Part shown: one piece after another, positions 3,693 to 55,503 of the stretch
How the letters are laid out: every line of letters begins with the position of its first letter
How positions within the stretch are numbered: the first letter of the stretch is position 1
Program-made: the position numbers and the translations under genes
Notes under the pieces: model-generated
Databases searched by the model: none
What the model saw: the letters and a program-made list of their open reading frames with translations, nothing else
Told to the model about the DNA's origin: nothing
Origin: Streptomyces sp. NBC_00539
GTDB taxonomy: Bacteria > Actinomycetota > Actinomycetes > Streptomycetales > Streptomycetaceae
NCBI RefSeq assembly: GCF_036346105.1
Contig: NZ_CP107811.1
Location: 5,289,501 to 5,353,500 of the forward strand
Reading direction: 5' to 3'
Length of the DNA stretch: 64,000 bases

Positions 3693-4673
3693 ATGACTGC
3701 TACGCGTACCACCGGCGCCGTCGCCGCCGGACTTGCCACCTTCGCCGCCGACGGCACCGTCCTCGACACCTGGTTCCCCGCCCCCGAGCTGGTCGCCGAG
3801 CCCGGCCCGGCCGGCACCGAGCGCCTCACCGCCGAGCGGGCCGTGGAGCTCCTGGGCGAGGCCGCGGCCAAGGCCATCGGGCCGGACGCGCGCCGCGGCG
3901 TCGAGGTCGTAGCCGTCCGCACCGTGATCGCCTCGCTCGACGACAAGCCGCTGGACGCGCACGACGCGTACCTGCGCCTGCACCTGCTCAGCCACCGCCT
4001 GGTCAAGCCGCACGGCCAGAACCTGGACGGCCTCTTCGGCCTGCTCGCCAACGTCGCGTGGACCTCCCTGGGCCCGGTCGCCGTCGACCAGGTGGAGACC
4101 GTCCGGCTGAACGCCCGCGCCGAAGGCCTGCACCTCCAGGTCACCTCGATCGACAAGTTCCCGCGGATGACGGACTACGTCGCCCCCAAGGGCGTGCGCA
4201 TCGCCGACGCCGACCGGGTCCGCCTCGGCGCGCACCTCGCCGAGGGCACCACCGTCATGCACGAGGGCTTCGTCAACTTCAACGCCGGCACGCTCGGCAC
4301 CTCCATGGTCGAAGGCCGCATCTCGGCGGGCGTCGTGATCGGCGACGGCTCCGACATCGGCGGCGGCGCCTCCACCATGGGCACCCTCTCCGGCGGCGGC
4401 AAGCAGATCATCTCGATCGGCGAGCGCTGCCTGGTCGGCGCGGAGGCGGGCGTCGGCATCGCGCTGGGCGACGAGTGCATCGTCGAGGCCGGCCTCTACG
4501 TGACCGCGGGCACCCGCGTCACCCTCCCGGACGGCCAGATCGTCAAGGCGCTGGAGCTCTCGGGCGCCAGCAACATCCTCTTCCGCCGCAACTCGGTCAC
4601 CGGCGCCGTCGAGGCCCGCCCGAACAACGCGGTCTGGGGCGGCCTGAACGAGGTCCTGCACAGCCACAACTGA
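3693..4673 (+). CDS. dapD: tetrahydrodipicolinate N-succinyltransferase
   Basis: Actinobacterial-type DapD of 326 residues. It transfers succinyl from succinyl-CoA to tetrahydrodipicolinate in the succinylase branch of lysine and meso-diaminopimelate synthesis, feeding peptidoglycan. The C-terminal half is a left-handed beta-helix with hexapeptide repeats ([36 protein letters not shown]). Conserved blocks [19 protein letters not shown] and [10 protein letters not shown] contain active-site residues of the family. Transcribed alone, followed by a strong terminator. Confidence 0.97.
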
Positions 4674-4716
4674 TCCGGCACCACTGATCGGCACAACCGG
4701 TCCGGTTCCGGCCGGT

Positions 4717-4769
4717 ACGCGCGAACGCCCTCCCACACCCCCGAGCGGGGTGGGAGGGCGTTCGCGCGT
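4717..4769. terminator. strong terminator after dapD
   Basis: A perfect 20-bp inverted repeat (4717-4736 with 4750-4769, arm begins ACGCGCGAACGCC) with a 13-nt loop separates dapD from the convergent small membrane-protein gene and should stop both. Confidence 0.85.
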
Positions 4770-4779
4770 GACCGGGTGG

Positions 4780-5034
4780 TCAGTGGAGGGCGATGGTGCG
4801 GACCAGGCCCGCGAAGGCCCGTTCCTCCTCCTCGGTCAGCTCGACCGTCTCCAGCGGGTGGCCGGCCGGGCCGCGCTGGCCCGGGATGGCCGCGAGGCCC
4901 TCGCGCACGCCCGGCTCCGGCGGGTGGAACCGGCCGTCCCACAGCATGCGGCCGAGGCCCATGACCCAGACCAGCGCGGCCACCAGGAGTACGGCCAGGC
5001 CGATTTCCCGGGCGAGGGAGAGGGAGGGGAGCAC
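4780..5034 (-). CDS. small single-pass membrane protein
   Basis: 84 residues, not recognised as a named family. Residues about 9-28 (IGLAVLLVAALVWVMGLGRM) form one transmembrane helix; the remainder is acidic and soluble, ending TEEEERAFAGLVRTIALH. Codon use is typical of the neighbours, so the frame is probably real. Standing between two terminators it appears to be its own transcription unit. Confidence 0.65.
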   Translation of the reverse strand: MLPSLSLAREIGLAVLLVAALVWVMGLGRMLWDGRFHPPEPGVREGLAAIPGQRGPAGHPLETVELTEEEERAFAGLVRTIALH

Positions 5035-7454: not shown

Positions 7455-8942
7455 ATGTCCGCAGAGCCGCACCCCACGCTGCCGCCGGTACGGCTGCACT
7501 CCGATGCGGAACTGGCCCGCGACGCCCTCGTCGCACCCCTGTTCGCCCGGGCCGTACGCCTCGCGCGCTGGGCCGGCCCCGACACGCGCGTCGAGGTCGG
7601 CGGCGAACTGGCCGCCGACCAGCTGCCGCAGGCCGCGGCCGCACTCGGACTCGACCCGGGCGACCCGGACGGCCCGGTGCACGCGAGCCAGGCCTGGCGG
7701 GTCGCCGTGGACACCGGCCTGGTGGACGTGACCGAACCCGAAGAGGACGCGGACGGGACCGGTCCCGTGACCGGTCACGGGACCGCCGAGCCCGGCGAGG
7801 ACCTCGCGCTGATCACCGGGGGCGCGCCCGGCGACGTACTCGACCTGTGGCTGGCCGCCCTGGACACCGTCCTCGCGGACGCGGCCGTCCCCGACCTGGA
7901 CGACCTCGTCGACGCCCTGGACGACGGCGGGGACATCGACTTCGACCGCCTCGACTGGAACCCGGCGCGCGAGGCGGACTTCCTCGACGGGGTCCTCGCC
8001 AACCTCTACCTGCTCACCGCCTCCGAGGGCGGCGCCGGGGAAGGCCCGGTGCCGCTGCCCGTCCTCGCCGCTTCGATGGTCGTCCCGGACGACATGGGCG
8101 ACCCCACCGACGCCGTACTGGAACAGGTCTCCGACGCGATGATGCGCCTGGACGACCAGTTCCGGCAGCTGGAGCCCATCGGACTGGTCGAGTTCCGGCC
8201 CGTGGACGAGGAGCTGATGGCCGAGGCGGGCGACGAGGAGATGCTCCCGGACCCGGCCGGGGCGGACGAGGAGGACATCGCGCGCTACGGGATGGTACGG
8301 CTGACCGCCCTCGGCCTGTACGGCGTCCGCGCCCGCATGCGCGAAGCGGGGGTGGAGGCGCCCGCCATCGGTGAACTGGCCGACAAGGGTGCGGACGCGC
8401 TGCTGGCGGCCGTCTCCCACTACCCGGAGCACGCGGCGCAGGCGGAGATCGAGCAGTGGCTGGCCGGGCGCGAGCCGGCGACGGCGGTGGCCGAACTGCT
8501 GGAGGCGGCCCGGGGCGACGACGAAGGGGCCCCGCTGCGCCGGCTGCGCTGCCAGCAGGCCCTCGCCCCGGCCGGACCCGAGGCGGAACCCGCGGTCCGG
8601 GCGGTGCTGGACGATCCGCGCCTGGGCGGGCTCGCGCGGGTGTGGCTGGCCGAGCGCGGGGCGAAGGACGTACCGGCACCGGACGGGGCGATGGTGTTCT
8701 GGCTGACGGTCGACACGATCGCGGCGCAGCTGGCGGCGGACGGTGAGGCGGAGGAACTGCCGCTGCTGATGCAGAGCCTGACGGGCCACCACGCGGGGTT
8801 CTTCGACGAGGTCTGGCGGGTGGAGCACCCGGCGACGGCGGAGGTCCTGGAGGCGATGGGCCGGCTGCACCCCGACAAGAAGGCGGCCAAGGAAGCCAAG
8901 AAGGCGGCGTTCAAGGCCCGCTCCCGCCCCCGCCGCCGGTGA
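7455..8942 (+). CDS. protein of unknown function, paralogue of 38065-39576
   Basis: 495 residues; no named family recognised. An N-terminal part (ARAVRLARWAG and a region resembling a winged helix around VHASQAWRVAVDTGLVDV) is followed by a long acidic, helical middle and a repeat-like alpha-helical C-terminal half (EQWLAGREPATAVAELLEAARG, RVWLAERG, FWLTVDTIAAQL) ending in a Lys/Arg-rich tail. The same order of blocks occurs in the protein at 38065-39576. The ATG at 7455 follows AGGAGAA; the upstream in-frame ATG at 7380 lacks a site. Cytoplasmic; role unknown. Confidence 0.85.
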   Translation: MSAEPHPTLPPVRLHSDAELARDALVAPLFARAVRLARWAGPDTRVEVGGELAADQLPQAAAALGLDPGDPDGPVHASQAWRVAVDTGLVDVTEPEEDADGTGPVTGHGTAEPGEDLALITGGAPGDVLDLWLAALDTVLADAAVPDLDDLVDALDDGGDIDFDRLDWNPAREADFLDGVLANLYLLTASEGGAGEGPVPLPVLAASMVVPDDMGDPTDAVLEQVSDAMMRLDDQFRQLEPIGLVEFRPVDEELMAEAGDEEMLPDPAGADEEDIARYGMVRLTALGLYGVRARMREAGVEAPAIGELADKGADALLAAVSHYPEHAAQAEIEQWLAGREPATAVAELLEAARGDDEGAPLRRLRCQQALAPAGPEAEPAVRAVLDDPRLGGLARVWLAERGAKDVPAPDGAMVFWLTVDTIAAQLAADGEAEELPLLMQSLTGHHAGFFDEVWRVEHPATAEVLEAMGRLHPDKKAAKEAKKAAFKARSRPRRR

Positions 8943-47699: not shown

Positions 47700-48395
47700 T
47701 CACCCGGGCGCGGGCCGGTCCGGCAGGCGCGGACGGTGTGCGGGCGGCGCGCCGGCACGGCCCGTCGGCGAGGCCGCGCCGGGGGCCAACAGGGCCTGGA
47801 CGAGAGCCCGTACGGACAGCAGGAACAGCCGTTCCGGATCCGGCGGGCGGGCCAGGGCGCGCGAGAGCGCCGGGTCGCCGGGCGCCGCGGCCGGGCCCCA
47901 GAGCTGCCCCTCGTCGGGGGACTGGGCGGGGGAGCGTTCGCGGTTGCGCTCCACCAGCAGGAAGCCGACGATCTGGAACTGGACGGCGCGCACCGCGTCG
48001 GCGGCCCGGGCCCCGCGCAGCCCGGCCGCGCGGACCTCCTGCACGAGGGCCTGCTGGGCGGGGAGGAACATCCGCTCCGTCAGCCCGCGTTCGTGGACCA
48101 TCGCGATCAGGTGCGGCCTCCCGCGCAGTTCGCGGCGCAGCAGCCGGGCCACGGAGACGATCCGCTCGGCCGGGGTGCGGCCCGTGGGCCTGATCGCACC
48201 CATCTCCAGCACGGTGCGCTCCACGAGGGCGTCGAGCAGCGATTCGCGGTTGCCGACGTGCCAGTAGATGGAGGTGACGGCGGTGCCGAGTTCCGCGGCC
48301 AGCCCCCGCATGGTGAGGGCCGCCGGGCCGTGCCGTCTGACCAGGGACGCGGCCGCGTCCAGTACCTCCTCGCGGGTCAGCGCGCTTCGCGCCAT
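47700..48395 (-). CDS. TetR family transcriptional regulator
   Basis: 231 residues. The N-terminal helix-turn-helix is REEVLDAAASLVRRHGPAALTMRGLAAELGTAVTSIYWHVGNRESLLDAL (about 8-57). The C-terminal ligand domain ends in an Arg/Pro-rich tail. ATG at 48395; the longer frame from 48512 crosses the operator and has no site. Divergent from the acetoacetate-decarboxylase-family operon, with two palindromes between, so it probably represses both. Confidence 0.9.
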   Translation of the reverse strand: MARSALTREEVLDAAASLVRRHGPAALTMRGLAAELGTAVTSIYWHVGNRESLLDALVERTVLEMGAIRPTGRTPAERIVSVARLLRRELRGRPHLIAMVHERGLTERMFLPAQQALVQEVRAAGLRGARAADAVRAVQFQIVGFLLVERNRERSPAQSPDEGQLWGPAAAPGDPALSRALARPPDPERLFLLSVRALVQALLAPGAASPTGRAGAPPAHRPRLPDRPAPG

Positions 48396-48410
48396 GGATG
48401 CGCCGCCAAT

Positions 48411-48425
48411 CTGTCGGTCCGTCAG
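48411..48425. promoter_or_regulatory. palindrome near the TetR start
   Basis: CTGTCGGTCCGTCAG fits CTGNCGGNCCGNCAG, a perfect inverted pattern of the kind bound by TetR proteins, 16 bp from the regulator ATG: a candidate autoregulatory site. Confidence 0.55.
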
Positions 48426-48464
48426 TTGTCGCGGTCGTGGGTCTTTACCCTTCATCGTCCGCGG

Positions 48465-48479
48465 TGTAACTGTGTTACA
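48465..48479. promoter_or_regulatory. palindromic operator of the decarboxylase operon
   Basis: TGTAAC and GTTACA form perfect six-base arms around TGT, 26 bp before the ATG of the first operon gene, where the core promoter is expected. Confidence 0.65.
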
Positions 48480-48505
48480 GACCCGACCGAGAGGTGGTGC
48501 GAGAC

Positions 48506-49303
48506 ATGGCACGCGTACGGTACGGAGCGCGGACCGGGGCCGAGATCACGGCGTCGCGCGAGAAGAGCGCCAAGCTCCCCGACATCTGGTCCACCGGTGT
48601 GGTGGCCGTCTGGGAGAGCGACCCGGACGTGGTCGCGGCGGTCCTGCCGCCCCCGCTCAAGCCCGCCGAACGACCCCTGGTACGGGCCAACATCAGCAAG
48701 GTCGACCTGCCCGGTTACCCGCTCGGCGCCGGCTCGGTGGCCGTCGCGGCCCGCCACGGCGAGGTCGAGGGCTGGTACCCGCTCGTCATGCCGATGACCC
48801 ACGAACGCGCCCTGGTCGGCGGCCGTGAGGTGTTCGGCGAACCGAAGAAGCTGGGCGAGGTCACCGTCGAGCGCGAGGGCCTGGTCGTCCGCGCCTCCCT
48901 CGCCCGGCACGGCATCGCCTTCGTGGAGGTGCGCGGGGCCGTCGACGGCGCCCTCCCGCTGCCCGGGCCCACCGTCAAGACCGACTTCTACTTCAAGTTC
49001 CTCCCCGCCGTCGACGGTTCGGGCTTCGAGGCCGACCCGGTGCTCGTGCACTGCACGCGCAACGAGAAGGTCCGCAGGCTGGAACACCTCACCGGGGACG
49101 TGGTGCTGCGCGAGTCGATGTTCGACCCGGTGGCCGACCTGCCCGTACGCCGCATCGTGGAACTGACCATCGGCGAGAAGACCACCGACCAGAAGGGCCG
49201 GGTCGCCGAACGCGTCAGCGCCCAGGCCCTCCTCCCGTACATCCACCAGCGCTACGACGACCCGCTCCAGGTACTCGACGGGCCGCCCGAGGGGAGCGTG
49301 TGA
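48506..49303 (+). CDS. acetoacetate decarboxylase family protein
   Basis: 265 residues. The family's Schiff-base Lys lies in the conserved VFGEPKKLGEV; MPMTHERALVGGRE and FYFKFLPAVDGSGFEADPVLV are typical. True acetoacetate decarboxylases and a wider group acting on other beta-keto acids or hydrating intermediates share this fold. First gene of a four-gene operon with ribosome site GAGAGGTGG before ATG at 48506; the next gene starts at the stop (TGAGATG). Confidence 0.88.
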   Translation: MARVRYGARTGAEITASREKSAKLPDIWSTGVVAVWESDPDVVAAVLPPPLKPAERPLVRANISKVDLPGYPLGAGSVAVAARHGEVEGWYPLVMPMTHERALVGGREVFGEPKKLGEVTVEREGLVVRASLARHGIAFVEVRGAVDGALPLPGPTVKTDFYFKFLPAVDGSGFEADPVLVHCTRNEKVRRLEHLTGDVVLRESMFDPVADLPVRRIVELTIGEKTTDQKGRVAERVSAQALLPYIHQRYDDPLQVLDGPPEGSV

Positions 49304-49304
49304 G

Positions 49305-50189
49305 ATGCACCTCGAACCGGGACAGGTCGCCGTCGTCACCGGCGCGGCCGGCGGCATCGGGCTCGCCATGGCCCGCCGCTTCGCCGCCGAGGGACTGCGG
49401 GTCGTACTCGCCGACGTGGAGGAGGGCGCCCTGCGCGAGGCGGCCGCCGAACTGACCGCCGAAGGCGCGGAGGTGCTGGCCAGGCAGGTCGACGTCAGCG
49501 AACGCGATGCGGTCGTCGCCCTCGCGGACGCCGCCTACGACACCTTCGGCGCCGTGCACGTCCTGTGCAACAACGCGGGCGTCGGCTCCGGCGCCGAGGG
49601 CCGGATGTGGGAGCACGAGCCCAACGACTGGAAATGGGCGTTCGCCGTCAACGTCTGGGGCGTCTTCCACGGCATCCAGGCCTTCGTCCCCCGCATGATC
49701 GCGGGCGGCGCCCCGGGGCACGTCGTCAACACCAGCTCCGGCGACGGCGGGATCGCCCCGCTGCCCACCGCCTCCGTGTACGCCGTCACCAAGGCCGCAG
49801 TGGTCACCATGACCGAGTCCCTGTACGCCCACCTCAAGGCGGAGGGCGCCGACGTCGGCGCCTCCGTCCTCTTCCCCGGACCGCACATGCTGCGCACCGG
49901 CCTGTGGGAGTCGCACCGCAACCGGCCGGAACGCTACGCGAAGCAGCGGCCGCGCAAGACCCCGTACCGCAGCCTCCACGACTACGAGGCCGCGATGAAA
50001 CGGGCCGGCCACGAGGTGCGGTTCACCCCGGTGGAGGAGGTCGCCGAGCACGTGGTCGACGGCATCCGCGCCGACCGGTTCTGGATGCTGCCGGCCGGCG
50101 AGCACAGCGACCGGCAGATCCGCGCCCGTTCGCAGTCGATGCTCGACCGCGCCAACCCCGCCTACCTCGAAAGCTTCATCCTCGACTGA
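49305..50189 (+). CDS. short-chain dehydrogenase/reductase
   Basis: 294 residues, classical SDR with a complete active site: TGAAGGIGLAMA (nucleotide), NNAGVGS, the Ser in NTSSGDG, and YAVTK (Tyr-x3-Lys). The C-terminal extension (residues 215-294) is longer than usual. Second gene of the TetR-controlled operon, one base after the decarboxylase-family gene. Confidence 0.92.
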   Translation: MHLEPGQVAVVTGAAGGIGLAMARRFAAEGLRVVLADVEEGALREAAAELTAEGAEVLARQVDVSERDAVVALADAAYDTFGAVHVLCNNAGVGSGAEGRMWEHEPNDWKWAFAVNVWGVFHGIQAFVPRMIAGGAPGHVVNTSSGDGGIAPLPTASVYAVTKAAVVTMTESLYAHLKAEGADVGASVLFPGPHMLRTGLWESHRNRPERYAKQRPRKTPYRSLHDYEAAMKRAGHEVRFTPVEEVAEHVVDGIRADRFWMLPAGEHSDRQIRARSQSMLDRANPAYLESFILD

Positions 50190-50208
50190 GGAGCAGAGGA
50201 GCCCTGCC

Positions 50209-51495
50209 GTGAACGCGTACGAAGACCCGTACCTGATCATCTCCTCCGACTGCCACGCGGGACTGCCCACCGAGCGCTACCGCCCCTACCTCGACTCCCG
50301 CTTCCACCCGCAGTTCGACGAGTTCCTCGGACAGCAGGGCGCCCGCCGCGAGGAGGCCACCCGGCTCGGGGTGCGCAACGACGCCTTCGCCGAGAAGTGG
50401 TTCTACGACCACGAGGAAGGCCTCAGGGGCGGCTGGGACGTGGGGCAGCGGCTCAAGGAACTCGACGGCGACGGGGTGGCCGCCGAAGTCGTCTTCCCCG
50501 ACGCGGACGCGGTCGACAGCCGGACCGCGGCCCCCTTCGGGGTGGGCCTCGGCCTCTCCGGCGACCAGGACCCCGAGCTCGGCATGGCCGGCGCGCAGGC
50601 CCACAACCGCTGGCTGGCGGAGTTCGTCTCCGAACACCCCGAACGGCACTGCGGCGTCGCCCTGCTGCCCATCACCGGCGAGCCGGCGAAGGTCGTCGCG
50701 GAGATCCACCGGGCGAAGGAGTCCGGGCTCGGAGCACTGATGATCCCCTCCATGTGGGTCGACCGGGCGCCCTACCACGACCGCCGCTACGACCCCGTCT
50801 GGGCGGCTGCGGCCGAGACGGCGATGCCGGTCGTCACCCACTCGGGGGCGGCGCCCCGGCACGAGTACGGCGACCACCTCGGCATCTACGTCTCCGAGGT
50901 CACCTGGTGGCCGGCCCGCCCGCTGTGGTTCCTGCTGTGGTCGGGGGTGTTCGAACGGCACCCCGGGCTCAAGTTCGGCGTGGCGGAGTCGGGCTGCTGG
51001 TGGCTGCCCAACCAGCTGTGGTTCATGGACCGGCTCTACCTGGGGGCGCACGGCGGCAAGAAGCTCTCCCCGTTCGCGGAGCTGAAACGCCCGCCCAGCG
51101 AGTACCTGGACCGGCAGGTCTTCGTCTGCGCGACGAACACCAAGCGGCGCGAGCTGGCCCAGCGCTACGAGATCGGCGTGGACAACATCCTGTGGGGTTC
51201 GGACTTCCCCCACCCCGAGGGCACCTGGCCCGACACCCGGAACTGGCTGCGGAACACCTTCCACGACATCCCGGTCGGCGAGAGCCGCCGGATGCTGGGC
51301 CTGGCCGCGGCGGAGGTCTTCGGCTTCGACACCGCCGAGCTGGCCCCCCTCGCCCGGCGGATCGGCCCGACCCCCGCGGAGCTCGGCCAGAGCGCCGACC
51401 AGGCGGCGGTGGAGGCCTCCTGGGCCGGCTCCCGCGAGGTGGGCCGGCACTGGCTGACCGGCCACGACTTCCCGTCGCTGGGGGTCTCGTCATGA
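50209..51495 (+). CDS. amidohydrolase_2 family protein
   Basis: 428 residues, metal-dependent TIM-barrel amidohydrolase of the PF04909 group that includes decarboxylases of aromatic and beta-keto acids. Metal residues: SSDCHAG near the N-terminus, the His in VVTHSGAAP, and the Asp in ILWGSDFPHPEG. GAGGAGCAGAGGAG precedes GTG at 50209. The following gene is a paralogue and overlaps by four bases (ATGA). Confidence 0.88.
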   Translation: MNAYEDPYLIISSDCHAGLPTERYRPYLDSRFHPQFDEFLGQQGARREEATRLGVRNDAFAEKWFYDHEEGLRGGWDVGQRLKELDGDGVAAEVVFPDADAVDSRTAAPFGVGLGLSGDQDPELGMAGAQAHNRWLAEFVSEHPERHCGVALLPITGEPAKVVAEIHRAKESGLGALMIPSMWVDRAPYHDRRYDPVWAAAAETAMPVVTHSGAAPRHEYGDHLGIYVSEVTWWPARPLWFLLWSGVFERHPGLKFGVAESGCWWLPNQLWFMDRLYLGAHGGKKLSPFAELKRPPSEYLDRQVFVCATNTKRRELAQRYEIGVDNILWGSDFPHPEGTWPDTRNWLRNTFHDIPVGESRRMLGLAAAEVFGFDTAELAPLARRIGPTPAELGQSADQAAVEASWAGSREVGRHWLTGHDFPSLGVSS

Positions 51496-52712
51496 CGCAG
51501 GACCGCTACACGGTCATCTCGGCGGACTGCCACGCGGGCGCCGACCTGCTCGACTACAAGCCGTACCTGGAGAAGCGCCACCACGACGAGTTCGACGCCT
51601 GGGCAGCCACCTACGTCAACCCGTACGAGGACCTCCTCGCCGACACCGCCGACCGCAACTGGAACTCGGCCCGGCGCGTGGCCGAACTCGAAGCGGACGG
51701 CATCGTCGCGGAGGTCGTCTTCCCCAACACCATCCCGCCGTTCTTCCCCAAGACCTCCCTGATGGCCCAGCCGCCCACGGCCGCGGAGTACGCACTGCGC
51801 TGGGCGGGCCTGCAGGCCCACAACCGCTGGCTCGCCGACTTCTGCGCGGACGCCCCGGGCCGGCGGGCCGGGGTGGCCCAGATCCTGCTCAACGACGTGG
51901 ACGAGGCGGTGCGCGAGATCCGCCGCACCCGGGCGGCGGGCCTCACGGGCGGGATCCTCCTCCCGGGCGTCCCGCCGGGCTCCACCGTCCCCGAGCTCTA
52001 CTCCTCGGCCTACGACCCGATCTGGGCGGTGTGCGACGAACTGGACGTCCCGGTCAACCACCACGGCGGCTCGGCGTCCCCGCCGCTCGGCGACGAACCG
52101 GCCGCCAGGGCCGTCTTCATGGTGGAGACCACCTGGTTCTCGCACCGGGCCCTGTGGCACCTGGTCTTCGGCGGGGCCTTCCGCCGCCACCCCGGTCTCA
52201 AGCTGGTCCTGACGGAGCAGGGCTCCGGCTGGATCCCGGGCGTGCTGGACATGCTGGACTACTACCACGCCCGGCTGGTCGCCGCCTCGGCCACGGCGGA
52301 GGCCAAGTTCGGTGCGGGCCTGGCGGATTCCATGGGCAAGGGCCCGAGCGAGGTGTGGCGGGACAACTGCTTCGTGGGGGCGAGCTTCATGCGTCCCCAC
52401 GAGGTCCCGCTGCGGCAGCGGATCGGCCTCGACAAGATCATGTGGGGCAGTGACTACCCCCACGACGAGGGCACCACCCCCTTCTCCCGCGAGGGCCTGC
52501 GCATCGCCTACGCGGGCCTGCCGAGGGAGGAGGTCGCCGCCATGGTCGGCGGCAACGCGGCCCGCGTCTACGGGTTCGACCTGGAGCTGCTGGACCCGTT
52601 GGCGGCGGAGCACGGCCCCCTCGTCTCGGAAACCGCCGAACCCCTCACCGAAATCCCCCCACAGGCCACCAGCCCCGCCTTCGCCCGCGGGGCCTCGGTC
52701 CGCGTCTGGTGA
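51492..52712 (+). CDS. amidohydrolase_2 family protein, tandem paralogue
   Basis: 406 residues, paralogous to the preceding gene: SADCHAG, AHNRWLADF, VNHHGGS and IMWGSDYPHDEG take the same positions. The HHGG version of the second metal site differs from the THSG of its partner, suggesting different substrates. Last gene of the operon; translationally coupled. Confidence 0.88.
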   Translation: MTQDRYTVISADCHAGADLLDYKPYLEKRHHDEFDAWAATYVNPYEDLLADTADRNWNSARRVAELEADGIVAEVVFPNTIPPFFPKTSLMAQPPTAAEYALRWAGLQAHNRWLADFCADAPGRRAGVAQILLNDVDEAVREIRRTRAAGLTGGILLPGVPPGSTVPELYSSAYDPIWAVCDELDVPVNHHGGSASPPLGDEPAARAVFMVETTWFSHRALWHLVFGGAFRRHPGLKLVLTEQGSGWIPGVLDMLDYYHARLVAASATAEAKFGAGLADSMGKGPSEVWRDNCFVGASFMRPHEVPLRQRIGLDKIMWGSDYPHDEGTTPFSREGLRIAYAGLPREEVAAMVGGNAARVYGFDLELLDPLAAEHGPLVSETAEPLTEIPPQATSPAFARGASVRVW

Positions 52713-52818
52713 CGCGACCCCTCCCGGGGCGGCTCACGGCAGGTCCGTGATCCGCTCCACGGGAGGCGGTCCGCCGCCGTGGACCCACGTAAGGGGTACC
52801 CCGGGTAACCGCGATGGA

Positions 52819-52830
52819 TACCGATCGGTA
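52819..52830. promoter_or_regulatory. palindrome upstream of the hydroxylase operon
   Basis: TACCGATCGGTA is a perfect 12-bp palindrome, 44 bp before the ATG at 52875. GGGGTACCCC (52793-52802) is a second palindrome upstream. A TATGGT box (52863-52868) exactly six bases before the ATG suggests a leaderless mRNA. Confidence 0.5.
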
Positions 52831-52874
52831 ACAACCCCTAGCGGCGGCGGTGGGGGCGCCTCTATGGTGCGGGC

Positions 52875-53747
52875 ATGCCGAACCTGCCCGATGTCGTGCT
52901 GTGGTCCATACCCGCCTTCGTGCTGCTCACCGTCGTGGAGCTGGTGAGCTACCGGCTCCATCCCGACGAGGACGCCGCCGGGTACGAGGCCAAGGACGCG
53001 GCCACCAGCATCGCCATGGGTCTCGGCAGCATCGGGTTCGACCTGCTCTGGAAGCTCCCGGTCGTCGCGGTCTTCACGGCGGTCTACGAACTGACCCCGC
53101 TGCGCGTGCCGTTCCTGTGGTGGACCGTCCCGCTGATGCTGCTCGCCCAGGACTTCCTCTACTACTGGCAGCACCGCGGCCACCACGTCATCCGGATCCT
53201 GTGGGCCTGCCACGTCGTCCACCACAGCAGCCGGCGGTTCAACCTCACCACCGCCCTGCGCCAGCCCTGGACCAGCGCCACCACCTGGTGGTTCTACCTG
53301 CCGATGGTCGCCCTCGGGGTGCACCCGGCCGTGATCCCGTTCTGCTACGGCATCAACCTGCTCTACCAGTTCTGGGTCCACACCGAGCGCATCGACAAGC
53401 TGCCGCGGGCCTACGAGTACGTCTTCAACACCCCCTCCCACCACCGCGTCCACCACGCCTCCCAAGGCGGTTACCTGGACCGCAACTACGGCGGGATCCT
53501 GATCGTCTGGGACCGGATGTTCGGCTCCTGGGTGGGGGAGGGCGAGAGGCCCGTCTACGGGCTCACGAAGAACATCAACACCTTCAACCCGCTGCGCGTG
53601 GCCACCCACGAGTACGCCGCCATCGCCCGCGACGTCCGCGCCGCCCGCAGCTGGCGCGAGCGCGCCGGACGGGTCTTCCGCGGCCCCGGCTGGCAGCCCG
53701 CCCCGGCCGCCGAGCCCGCCAAGGCCGCGGCGGAGCAGGCCGCGTGA
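52875..53747 (+). CDS. membrane di-iron hydroxylase, alkylglycerol-monooxygenase-like
   Basis: 290 residues of the fatty acid hydroxylase/sterol desaturase superfamily, about four to five helices. The eight-His di-iron set is complete: HRGHH (100-104), HVVHH (113-117) and HHRVHH (189-194). The stretches HHSSRRFNLTTALRQ, LLYQFWVHTE, NTPSHHRVHHA and VYGLTKNINTF closely resemble alkylglycerol monooxygenase (AGMO/TMEM195) as I remember it, which hydroxylates ether lipids so that they break to glycerol lipid and fatty aldehyde. The stop overlaps the start of the YhhN gene (GTGA). Confidence 0.85.
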   Translation: MPNLPDVVLWSIPAFVLLTVVELVSYRLHPDEDAAGYEAKDAATSIAMGLGSIGFDLLWKLPVVAVFTAVYELTPLRVPFLWWTVPLMLLAQDFLYYWQHRGHHVIRILWACHVVHHSSRRFNLTTALRQPWTSATTWWFYLPMVALGVHPAVIPFCYGINLLYQFWVHTERIDKLPRAYEYVFNTPSHHRVHHASQGGYLDRNYGGILIVWDRMFGSWVGEGERPVYGLTKNINTFNPLRVATHEYAAIARDVRAARSWRERAGRVFRGPGWQPAPAAEPAKAAAEQAA

Positions 53748-54430
53748 GCGCCACCGAGTCCCGTACCCCCTCCTGGGCGCACCCCGTACCGGACGACACC
53801 CGCGGGCGGGTGCTGCTCGCCGCGTTCGCCGCCGCCGGCGTGCTCGACCTCGCCTCGCTGCTCGCCGGCTGGCACCTCGGGCACGTCCTCGCCAAGCCGC
53901 TGCTGATGCCGCTGCTCGTCGCCCACGTGGTCACCCGAGGGGCGCCCCGGCTGCTCGTCGCGGCCCTGCTGTTCGGGTGGGGCGGGGACCTGGCGCTGCT
54001 CTTCGACGCCGGGCCCGCCTTCCTCATCGGCATGGGCTCCTTCGCCGCCGGGCACGTCTGCTACCTCCTGCTCTTCGGCAGGGGCAGGACGCACCCCGCG
54101 CTCGGGGGCGCGTACGCCGCCGCGCTCGTCGCCACGGTCGCGCTGCTCTGGAGCGACCTTCCGGGCGACCTGAGGGTGCCCGTCGCCGGGTACAGCCTGC
54201 TGCTCACCGCGATGGCCTACCGCTCCAGCGCCCTCGGGACGCGCGCGGCGATCGGCGGGGCGCTGTTCCTGCTCTCGGACACCCTCATCGCCACCGGCGT
54301 CGCCGACTGGCCGCAGCCGCCCCGACCGGACCTGTGGATCATGGCCACCTACCTCGCCGCCCAGTACCTGCTGGCCACGGGCGCGCTCGCCTCCCGGCAG
54401 GCGTACGGTGGGTCAGTCATACAAGACTGA
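53744..54430 (+). CDS. YhhN (lysoplasmalogenase-family) membrane protein
   Basis: 228 residues with seven to eight helices. YhhN/TMEM86 family marks: AKPLLMPLLVAHV, LLFGWGGDLALLF, FLIGMGSFAAGHVCYLLLF, AYRSSALGTRAAIGGALFLLSDTLIA. Characterised members hydrolyse the vinyl-ether bond of lysoplasmalogens, giving a fatty aldehyde. GTG at 53744 overlaps the hydroxylase stop by four bases, so the two are co-translated. Confidence 0.88.
   Translation: MSATESRTPSWAHPVPDDTRGRVLLAAFAAAGVLDLASLLAGWHLGHVLAKPLLMPLLVAHVVTRGAPRLLVAALLFGWGGDLALLFDAGPAFLIGMGSFAAGHVCYLLLFGRGRTHPALGGAYAAALVATVALLWSDLPGDLRVPVAGYSLLLTAMAYRSSALGTRAAIGGALFLLSDTLIATGVADWPQPPRPDLWIMATYLAAQYLLATGALASRQAYGGSVIQD
54413..54430. promoter_or_regulatory. 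inverted repeat before the alcohol dehydrogenase
   Basis: TCAGTC (54413-54418) and GACTGA (54425-54430) form perfect six-base arms around ATACAA. The repeat ends on the YhhN stop codon and lies 30 bp before the dehydrogenase ATG: a candidate operator for an internal promoter. Confidence 0.55.
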
Positions 54431-54459
54431 ACCAACCTGATCGGGAGGGCAGCACCACC

Positions 54460-55503
54460 ATGCGTGCCACCGTCATCCACGCCCCGCACGACATCCGCGT
54501 GGAGGAGGTGCCCGACGCTGCGATCCAGCGCCCCGAGGACGCCGTCGTCCGCGTCCTGCGTGCCTGCATCTGCGGCAGCGACCTGTGGGCCTACCGCGGC
54601 GCGGCCGCGCGCCGGCCCGGCCAGCGCATCGGTCACGAGTTCCTCGGCATCGTCGAGGAGACCGGCTCCGCCGTCTCCGGCCTGCGCGCGGGCGACCTCG
54701 TCGTCGCGCCCTTCATGTGGTCGGACGGCACCTGCGACTACTGCTCCGAGGGCCTGTACACCTCCTGCGTGCACGGCGGCTTCTGGGGTTCGGTCGGCTA
54801 CGACGGCGGCCAGGGCGAGGCCGTGCGCGTACCGCACGCCGACGGCACCCTGGTGAAGCTGCCCGCCGACGCGGCCTCCGACGAACACCTGCTGACCGGG
54901 CTGCTGTCGCTGTCCGACGTCATGGGCACCGGCCACCACGCAGCCGTGGGCGCCGGAGTCCGCAAGGGCTCCACGGTCGCCGTCGTCGGTGACGGCGCGG
55001 TCGGCCTGTGCGGCGTCCTCGCGGCCAAGCGGCTCGGCGCCGACCGGATCATCGCCCTGGGCCGCCACACCGCCCGTACCGACATCGCGAAGCGGTTCGG
55101 GGCCACCGACATCGTCGCCGAACGCGGCGAGGCCGCCGAGGCGGCCGTCCGCGAGCTCACCGGCGGCCAGGGCGCCCACTGCGTCATCGAGGCCGTCGGC
55201 ACCGAGCAGTCCATGCGCACGGCGGTGAACATCGCCCGCGACGGCGGGGCCATCGGCTACGTCGGCGTCCCGCACGGCAGCGGCACCGGCCTCGACCTCG
55301 GTGTCATGTTCGACCGCAACCTCACCCTGCGCGGGGGCGTCGCCCCGGTGCGCGCGTACATCCCGGAGCTGCTGGAGGACGTGCTGAGCGGCGCGATCGA
55401 CCCGGCGCCCGTCTTCGACCGGGCGGTCTCCCTCGACGAGGTGCCGGACGGCTACCGCGCGATGGACGACCGCAGCGCCCTCAAGGTCCTGATCACGCTC
55501 TGA
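54460..55503 (+). CDS. zinc-dependent alcohol dehydrogenase
   Basis: 347 residues, medium-chain dehydrogenase. Catalytic zinc: CGSD(LWAY) and GHEFLGIVEE; a reduced structural-zinc loop is seen as CDYCSEGLYTSC. Nucleotide fold VAVVGDGAVGLCGVLAAKRLGAD. GGGAGGG precedes ATG at 54460. It starts 29 bp after YhhN on the same strand, so fatty aldehydes from the upstream enzymes are plausible substrates (inference). Confidence 0.9.
   Translation: MRATVIHAPHDIRVEEVPDAAIQRPEDAVVRVLRACICGSDLWAYRGAAARRPGQRIGHEFLGIVEETGSAVSGLRAGDLVVAPFMWSDGTCDYCSEGLYTSCVHGGFWGSVGYDGGQGEAVRVPHADGTLVKLPADAASDEHLLTGLLSLSDVMGTGHHAAVGAGVRKGSTVAVVGDGAVGLCGVLAAKRLGADRIIALGRHTARTDIAKRFGATDIVAERGEAAEAAVRELTGGQGAHCVIEAVGTEQSMRTAVNIARDGGAIGYVGVPHGSGTGLDLGVMFDRNLTLRGGVAPVRAYIPELLEDVLSGAIDPAPVFDRAVSLDEVPDGYRAMDDRSALKVLITL

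Follow-up and report, generated by a model that had tools for sequence, protein, structure and literature searches.

Can an actinomycete open both alkyl and vinyl ether bonds of lipids with the products of two adjoining genes? The question is raised by a locus of Streptomyces sp. NBC_00539 that lies in the 64,000-nucleotide stretch of DNA analysed here (the window; positions 5,289,501–5,353,500 of contig 1 in a 7.5-Mb genome of two contigs), where a gene for a membrane hydroxylase resembling the animal enzyme AGMO (TMEM195) is followed by a gene of the YhhN/TMEM86 family. We predict from sequence that the two form an actinomycete unit for ether-lipid cleavage, a reading to which we give an even chance. 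The initial annotation had placed these genes and an alcohol dehydrogenase gene in one operon, and a check of the open reading frames (ORFs) reproduced this layout to the base: the 3' end of the hydroxylase gene and the 5' end of the YhhN gene have four bases in common, and the dehydrogenase gene starts 29 bases past the YhhN stop (Table 1).

Table 1. Features of the ether-lipid locus, in window coordinates
Feature	Position	Strand	Characteristics
Promoter-like block	52804–52868	+	GTAAC at −70 and −47; palindrome; TATGGT hexamer
AGMO-like membrane di-iron hydroxylase, 290 aa	52875–53747	+	ATG start; PF04116
YhhN/TMEM86-family membrane protein, predicted lysoplasmalogenase, 228 aa	53744–54430	+	GTG start; PF07947
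Zinc-dependent medium-chain alcohol dehydrogenase, 347 aa, accessory neighbour	54460–55503	+	ADH_N and ADH_zinc_N

The hydroxylase matches the Pfam family FA_hydroxylase with 99.9 bits (cut-off 31) and is the only PF04116 match in the whole genome. Orthologues listed across the genus, with 74–93% identity to the window protein, confirm that the gene is not a chance ORF. All three motif stretches quoted in the initial annotation, HHSSRRFNLTTALRQ, NTPSHHRVHHA and VYGLTKNINTF, were found in the protein, and the conserved histidine set described there stands, although it numbers nine (H100, H104, H113, H116, H117, H169, H190, H193 and H194) rather than eight. Nine histidines and six other residues (Q162, D233, N235, Y236, W243 and D244 in human numbering) are reported as essential for human AGMO (PMC7911779), and sliding this pattern along the window protein placed all 15 at near-identical spacing, with an offset of −32 for the equivalents of H132, H136, H145, H148, H149, Q162 and H201, and of −31 for those of H221, H224, H225, D233, N235, Y236, W243 and D244.

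The same residues were followed through an alignment to which the fetched loci contributed 156 AGMO-like rows (two of them exact duplicates; the copies of loci L102, L103, L107, L109 and L110 were excluded). The equivalents of the histidines, D233, N235 and D244 show no variation, Q162 is kept in 154 rows, W243 is W in 146 rows and F in 10, and the position of Y236 is variable (Y in 62, F in 53 and H in 41). This conservation stems partly from selection, because the patterns with which 80 named loci were picked, YQ[FY][WF][IVL]HT[ED] and TPSHHRVH, include some of the histidines, but not Q162. In a control of distant PF04116 proteins (11 rows from ten loci, of which L130 and L131 are not so distant, at 39% and 34% identity), ten rows have a residue at the Q162 position and none of them has Q (V, I, four N and four H). 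A second control, consisting of eight other PF04116 proteins, likewise has no Q there, and the TALRQ and NTPSHHRVHH stretches are absent from it; this bears, indirectly, on the grouping with sterol or carotenoid hydroxylases that the initial annotation had named as the competing outcome. According to these controls, the nine histidines, W243 and D244 are general to PF04116, N235 and Y236 are common outside the AGMO-like set too, and D233, present in L130, L131 and the R. etli control, separates only in part. Within the sequences compared, Q162 is thus the essential residue that sets the window hydroxylase apart from other PF04116 proteins, and together with the residue count it upholds the AGMO-like assignment made in the initial annotation. 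Two plasmid relatives with 55% identity carry the Q162 and D233 equivalents, the p3211 copy reading TAVRQ. The Tenacibaculum locus L175 has two AGMO-like copies (4197–5003 on the minus and 7848–8657 on the plus strand), and in one row the Q162 position is occupied by K. The ornithine-lipid hydroxylase OlsE belongs to the same superfamily, and identity with it was rejected (NF052566, a weak match of 40.6 bits against an equivalog cut-off of 475).

An AlphaFold2 model of the hydroxylase, built with 77 sequences, has a mean pLDDT of 94.4 and a pTM of 0.90. The VIA structure comparison gave two PDB entries, both of the yeast hydroxylase Scs7p and both with modest scores (Z 5.4, rmsd 6.5 and Z 5.3, rmsd 5.9, each with 181 aligned residues). 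A sequence search of the PDB with the hydroxylase returned no match, and a profile search returned one at E 0.05, taken as chance. A longer AGMO-like form, with an insertion of up to ~100 residues in the N-terminal half, occurs in other actinobacteria (L093, L096, L099 and L101), and similar N-terminal pieces are also found in other loci.

The second protein matches Pfam YhhN with 121.3 bits (cut-off 25.6). Eight residues proposed as catalytic in TMEM86A (K43, G81, D82, H104, G182, S189, D190 and Y213) have been mutated in TMEM86A/B (PMC11994398), and all eight have equivalents in the window protein (K51, G81, D82, H104, G171, S178, D179 and Y203), as assigned by motif and spacing. Seven of them are kept in 62 or 63 of 63 aligned rows (62 distinct), and H104 is kept in 56; H104 and G182 of TMEM86A are reported as exceptions, in that their loss did not push activity below 10% (PMC11994398). 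Lysoplasmalogenase activity has been measured for Rv1401, an actinobacterial member of the family (PMC9052158). The window YhhN, which shares PF07947 and the eight residues with Rv1401 and TMEM86A/B, is accordingly a predicted lysoplasmalogenase; it differs from them in overlapping an AGMO-like gene and in that its activity is predicted. A sequence search of the PDB with YhhN gave a single match at E 0.098.

The association of the two genes was examined in a genus sample of 247 genomes, with the hydroxylase called at E ≤ 1e-50. The hydroxylase is present in 167 genomes and YhhN in 162; both occur in 151, only the hydroxylase in 16, only YhhN in 11, and neither in 69, which gives an odds ratio of 59 and a Fisher p of 1.5e-33 with shared descent ignored. 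For the 167 positive genomes, 150 hydroxylase places were listed, and at 134 of them YhhN lies directly downstream on the same strand, with 90–396 bases between the matched stretches. YhhN is 1.4 Mb away at one further place and on another contig at four, while 11 places have no listed YhhN place (six of these genomes are still YhhN-positive in the genome table). A separate check covered 75 hydroxylase-bearing genomes and five Streptomyces genomes without the hydroxylase; 61 of these 80 have YhhN, and none of the five does. The link between hydroxylase and YhhN exceeds chance.

Nevertheless, two functionally unrelated membrane genes could have stayed together through the synteny of the genus. 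Of 30 close Streptomyces loci, 29 have a subtilisin gene, without an evident functional tie, in the neighbourhood of the hydroxylase, and 24 have an adjacent YhhN, so that genus synteny alone could account for much of the link. What distinguishes the two explanations is distance. Adjacent YhhN was found in 19 of the 80 named loci, themselves drawn from at least 591 confirmed stretches (16 of 21 in Streptomycetaceae, two of four in Micromonospora and the single one in Nonomuraea); the named loci of identical gene order nearest to the window are from Streptomyces. The pair is present in Streptacidiphilus, in genome G040 of another family, and in a divergent Streptomyces copy of genome G016, and neither the subtilisin nor the dehydrogenase gene was found beside the pairs outside the genus or beside the G016 copy. 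Because YhhN stays in distant loci where these two neighbours were not found, linkage can be separated from synteny, and a purely positional association is very unlikely. The conservation of YhhN adjacency across actinomycetes, on which the initial annotation had staked its proposal, therefore extends from the genus to Streptacidiphilus, Nonomuraea, some Micromonospora, G040 and a plasmid.

This linear plasmid, p3211-1 of Streptomyces sp. 3211 (L216; NZ_CP020040.1, 189021–190561), carries a 55%-identical hydroxylase gene and a YhhN-type gene 29 bases apart, named 'sterol desaturase family protein' and 'lysoplasmalogenase' in the public record. The pair is flanked on both sides by transposase genes, and neither a subtilisin nor a dehydrogenase gene is annotated within 5 kb. 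On the hydroxylase tree, paired members fall into two separate supported clades (100/99 and 98/94), with five state changes and with unpaired members in both. The YhhN tree follows in part: the second group stays together (98/88, plus three unpaired Streptomyces YhhNs), and the first is less supported. Two separate paired clades and this partial agreement suggest that the pair is old and has been lost repeatedly, or that it formed more than once. In genome G012 (L030, L112), the hydroxylase gene lies 1.4 Mb from a YhhN–dehydrogenase–subtilisin block, and the unit therefore appears to have been split or rebuilt there.

Taking together the families, residues, pairing and spread, the following activities, substrates and aldehyde fate are predicted. 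Acting as a membrane di-iron oxygenase, the AGMO-like protein would attack 1-O-alkyl glycerols or lyso-alkyl phospholipids by hydroxylating the carbon that bears the ether, and the resulting hemiacetal would break down to a fatty aldehyde plus either glycerol or a glycerophosphodiester. Identical products would arise from the vinyl-ether (lysoplasmalogen) counterpart through hydrolysis by YhhN, located in the same membrane, and in some Streptomyces the adjoining zinc dehydrogenase could reduce or oxidise the aldehyde. The mammalian cleavage routes for both ether classes are set out in PMC9131029.

Several observations weigh against this scheme. Nine transmembrane domains have been proposed for human AGMO (PMC7911779), while the window protein has 290 residues and its model shows four helices of at least 18 residues and one of 15. 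By the helices of the model it falls short of nine, and we therefore call the protein 'AGMO-like', not AGMO; its length and number of helices point to a shorter form, as far as the model goes. The linkage within the genus is in part the ordinary synteny described above. Unpaired hydroxylases form the majority of the clade: none of the 54 named loci outside the three groups with adjacent YhhN has it, some of them on short contigs. In another family (f6, g8), nine genomes hold both genes, always apart. YhhN also remains where the hydroxylase is missing or eroded. Among the 11 genomes with YhhN and without the hydroxylase, nine regions were examined (G551 and G608 were left out), and tblastn detected hydroxylase pieces in four of them (L102, which includes 30 N, L103, L107 and L109); another region, L110 of G588, a genome above the hydroxylase threshold, contains 377 N. 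In L103, L107 and L109, which are window-type loci of three other Streptomyces without N, the catalytic core is lost and YhhN is kept, and YhhN can therefore persist alone. Deletion in every YhhN-positive, hydroxylase-less Streptomyces was rejected as a general account, clear core loss being counted in these three only. Finally, no biopterin-dependent aromatic hydroxylase was found in the genome, and a bacterial AGMO-like enzyme of known function acts on a pigment.

The latter enzyme, PRUB680 of Pseudoalteromonas rubra, is described as an AGMO-like protein that cyclises prodigiosin and is encoded away from the pigment gene cluster (PMC6667630, PMC7484904). Recruitment of such a protein for C–H oxidation of a pigment lends weight to the alternative that the window hydroxylase is an oxygenase of other chemistry, hydroxylating or cyclising a membrane lipid or a specialised metabolite, next to a YhhN acting as a general membrane hydrolase. 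The hydroxylase family extends across Actinobacteria, Bacteroidota and Proteobacteria, and its gene contexts differ, which is consistent with this: among the matches listed, the loci of Acidimicrobiia, Bacteroidota and Proteobacteria have the hydroxylase without an adjoining YhhN, and on a Pseudomonas plasmid (L217, NZ_LN809998.1) a 41%-identical hydroxylase gene adjoins an SDR gene, with a DUF1302 gene nearby; this different setting hints that the substrates in Gram-negatives are others. Against it stands the pairing with a lysoplasmalogenase-type protein, kept over genera and on a plasmid; moreover, PRUB680 and the window protein were set side by side by description only, as two bacterial AGMO-like oxygenases, of which PRUB680 acts on a pigment. 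We consider this alternative doubtful, although it deserves serious attention.

Membrane di-iron enzymes are capable of hydroxylation or desaturation, and one could therefore also imagine that the two proteins act in series. The hydroxylase, taking the role of a desaturase of the PEDS1/CarF type, would desaturate alkyl-ether lysolipids so that vinyl ethers result, and YhhN would hydrolyse the product. Serial action fits the tight pairing and the four-base overlap better than two parallel substrate ranges do, and it also fits the results for PF10520, the lipid desaturase of aerobic plasmalogen synthesis, which was not found in any of 61 genomes (the strain's own and 60 relatives). Yet the residues match AGMO, whose reaction gives the aldehyde without a second enzyme, and at the 1e-50 threshold no hydroxylase was detected in 11 of the 162 Streptomyces genomes that carry YhhN, which makes serial action improbable. 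If true, the ether bond would be opened by desaturation and hydrolysis and not by the direct hydroxylation of AGMO, actinomycetes could hold transient plasmalogens, and the pathway would be new.

Returning to cleavage of both ether classes in parallel, the source of the substrates has to be considered. Among 18 other genomes used as a control for PF10520, only a Deltaproteobacteria metagenome-assembled genome was positive, so the search can detect the family. It is therefore improbable that the strain synthesises vinyl ethers through the known aerobic pathway, the one to which this search was confined. Other organisms are the most likely source of the vinyl-ether substrates, which would be broken down as food or to detoxify them; the substrate of YhhN would be either such foreign lipids or the product of the hydroxylase itself. 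An actinomycete (Thermocrispum) phospholipase D specific for lysoplasmalogen has been described (PMC5095149). As to the electron donor, AGMO of animals needs tetrahydrobiopterin, and the bacterial hydroxylase of the window may or may not use a pterin. The genome encodes two pterin dehydratases, but these were dismissed as a marker of pterin use: PF01329 occurs in 241 of the 247 genus genomes, and being near-universal it is uninformative.

Bacterial AGMO-like proteins and YhhN as a lysoplasmalogenase are already known, and the family assignments are ordinary; what gives the locus its value is that the pair is conserved, has spread separately and can be tested. In line with the statement of the initial annotation that no bacterial operon of this kind has been described, searches of open-access literature, judged by titles, beginnings of abstracts and passages, yielded no paper joining an AGMO-like protein and YhhN in a bacterium, and as far as these searches go the linked pair would be the first bacterial gene unit predicted to deal with both ether classes, set in organisms that turn over soil lipids. 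PMC7911779 describes AGMO as the only known enzyme degrading alkylglycerols and lyso-alkylglycerophospholipids, and reports failed attempts to repeat its purification. A bacterial relative that is short and has all the published essential residues could be a tractable substitute in work on structure and mechanism, including the pterin question.

The region upstream of the hydroxylase gene contains a promoter-like block, which was compared in 54 loci (52 distinct sequences), with the start resolved in 53. In the window, TATGGT (52863–52868) lies 12 nt before the hydroxylase ATG. The GTAAC element occurs in the −75 to −35 interval of 48 of the 53 loci, mostly at −46 or −47 (letter shuffles 1.7%), a TA[CT][CG][GT]T hexamer at −12 or −13 in 45 (0.8%), and both together in 45 (0.03%). 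Since the hexamer is 12 or 13 nt from the ATG, this arrangement suggests that the hydroxylase transcript is leaderless. A standard sigma-70 scan of the region found nothing. The perfect 12-bp palindrome TACCGATCGGTA at 52819–52830 was discarded as a conserved operator, being present in only 4 of the 54 loci.

A search of 185 sequences at E ≤ 1e-10 detected a GntR-type regulator gene in 14 of the fetched loci. In ten it immediately precedes the hydroxylase on the same strand, in three it is divergent and in one it lies downstream, and it was found in none of the 30 close Streptomyces loci; both regulators tested have the Pfam GntR and FCD domains. The loci with an upstream GntR gene come from several actinomycete families (including L160, L197, L052, L059, L181 and L210), and on a Tsukamurella plasmid GntR is followed by the hydroxylase gene without YhhN.

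The dehydrogenase was identified by the Pfam domains ADH_N (79.3 bits) and ADH_zinc_N (83.3 bits) and by its best PDB sequence match, the alcohol dehydrogenase 4cpd (E 4.3e-58), while none of its 20 NCBIfam matches reached the cut-off. Identification as Ahr, the NADPH-dependent aldehyde reductase specific for fatty aldehydes, was rejected (NF047908, 37.2 bits against a cut-off of 470). Its place in the operon, as initially proposed, did not hold as a conserved feature: it is linked in 14 of the 30 close Streptomyces loci, and elsewhere none was found beside the pair (E ≤ 1e-60, within 9 kb), which excludes it as a core member. Weaker relatives of the dehydrogenase occur near a few unpaired hydroxylases, for example upstream in L075.

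A search for further conserved neighbours in 73 chosen loci gave no additional member, the largest groups being the hydroxylase and frames overlapping it; the grouping is blurred by overlapping frames in high-GC DNA. One group, found in 20 of the 73 loci at scattered distances and on both strands, corresponds to an SDR gene in the window, another (11 loci) overlaps the GntR region, and all remaining groups comprise at most six loci. Upstream of the hydroxylase, on the plus strand within 47700–52712, the window carries an acetoacetate-decarboxylase-like gene and an SDR gene, along with two Amidohydro_2 genes in tandem, the second of which begins four bases ahead of the end of the first; a minus-strand ORF at 47700–48512 is TetR-like as judged by eye. 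The genes of this upstream region possibly form a separate catabolic operon.

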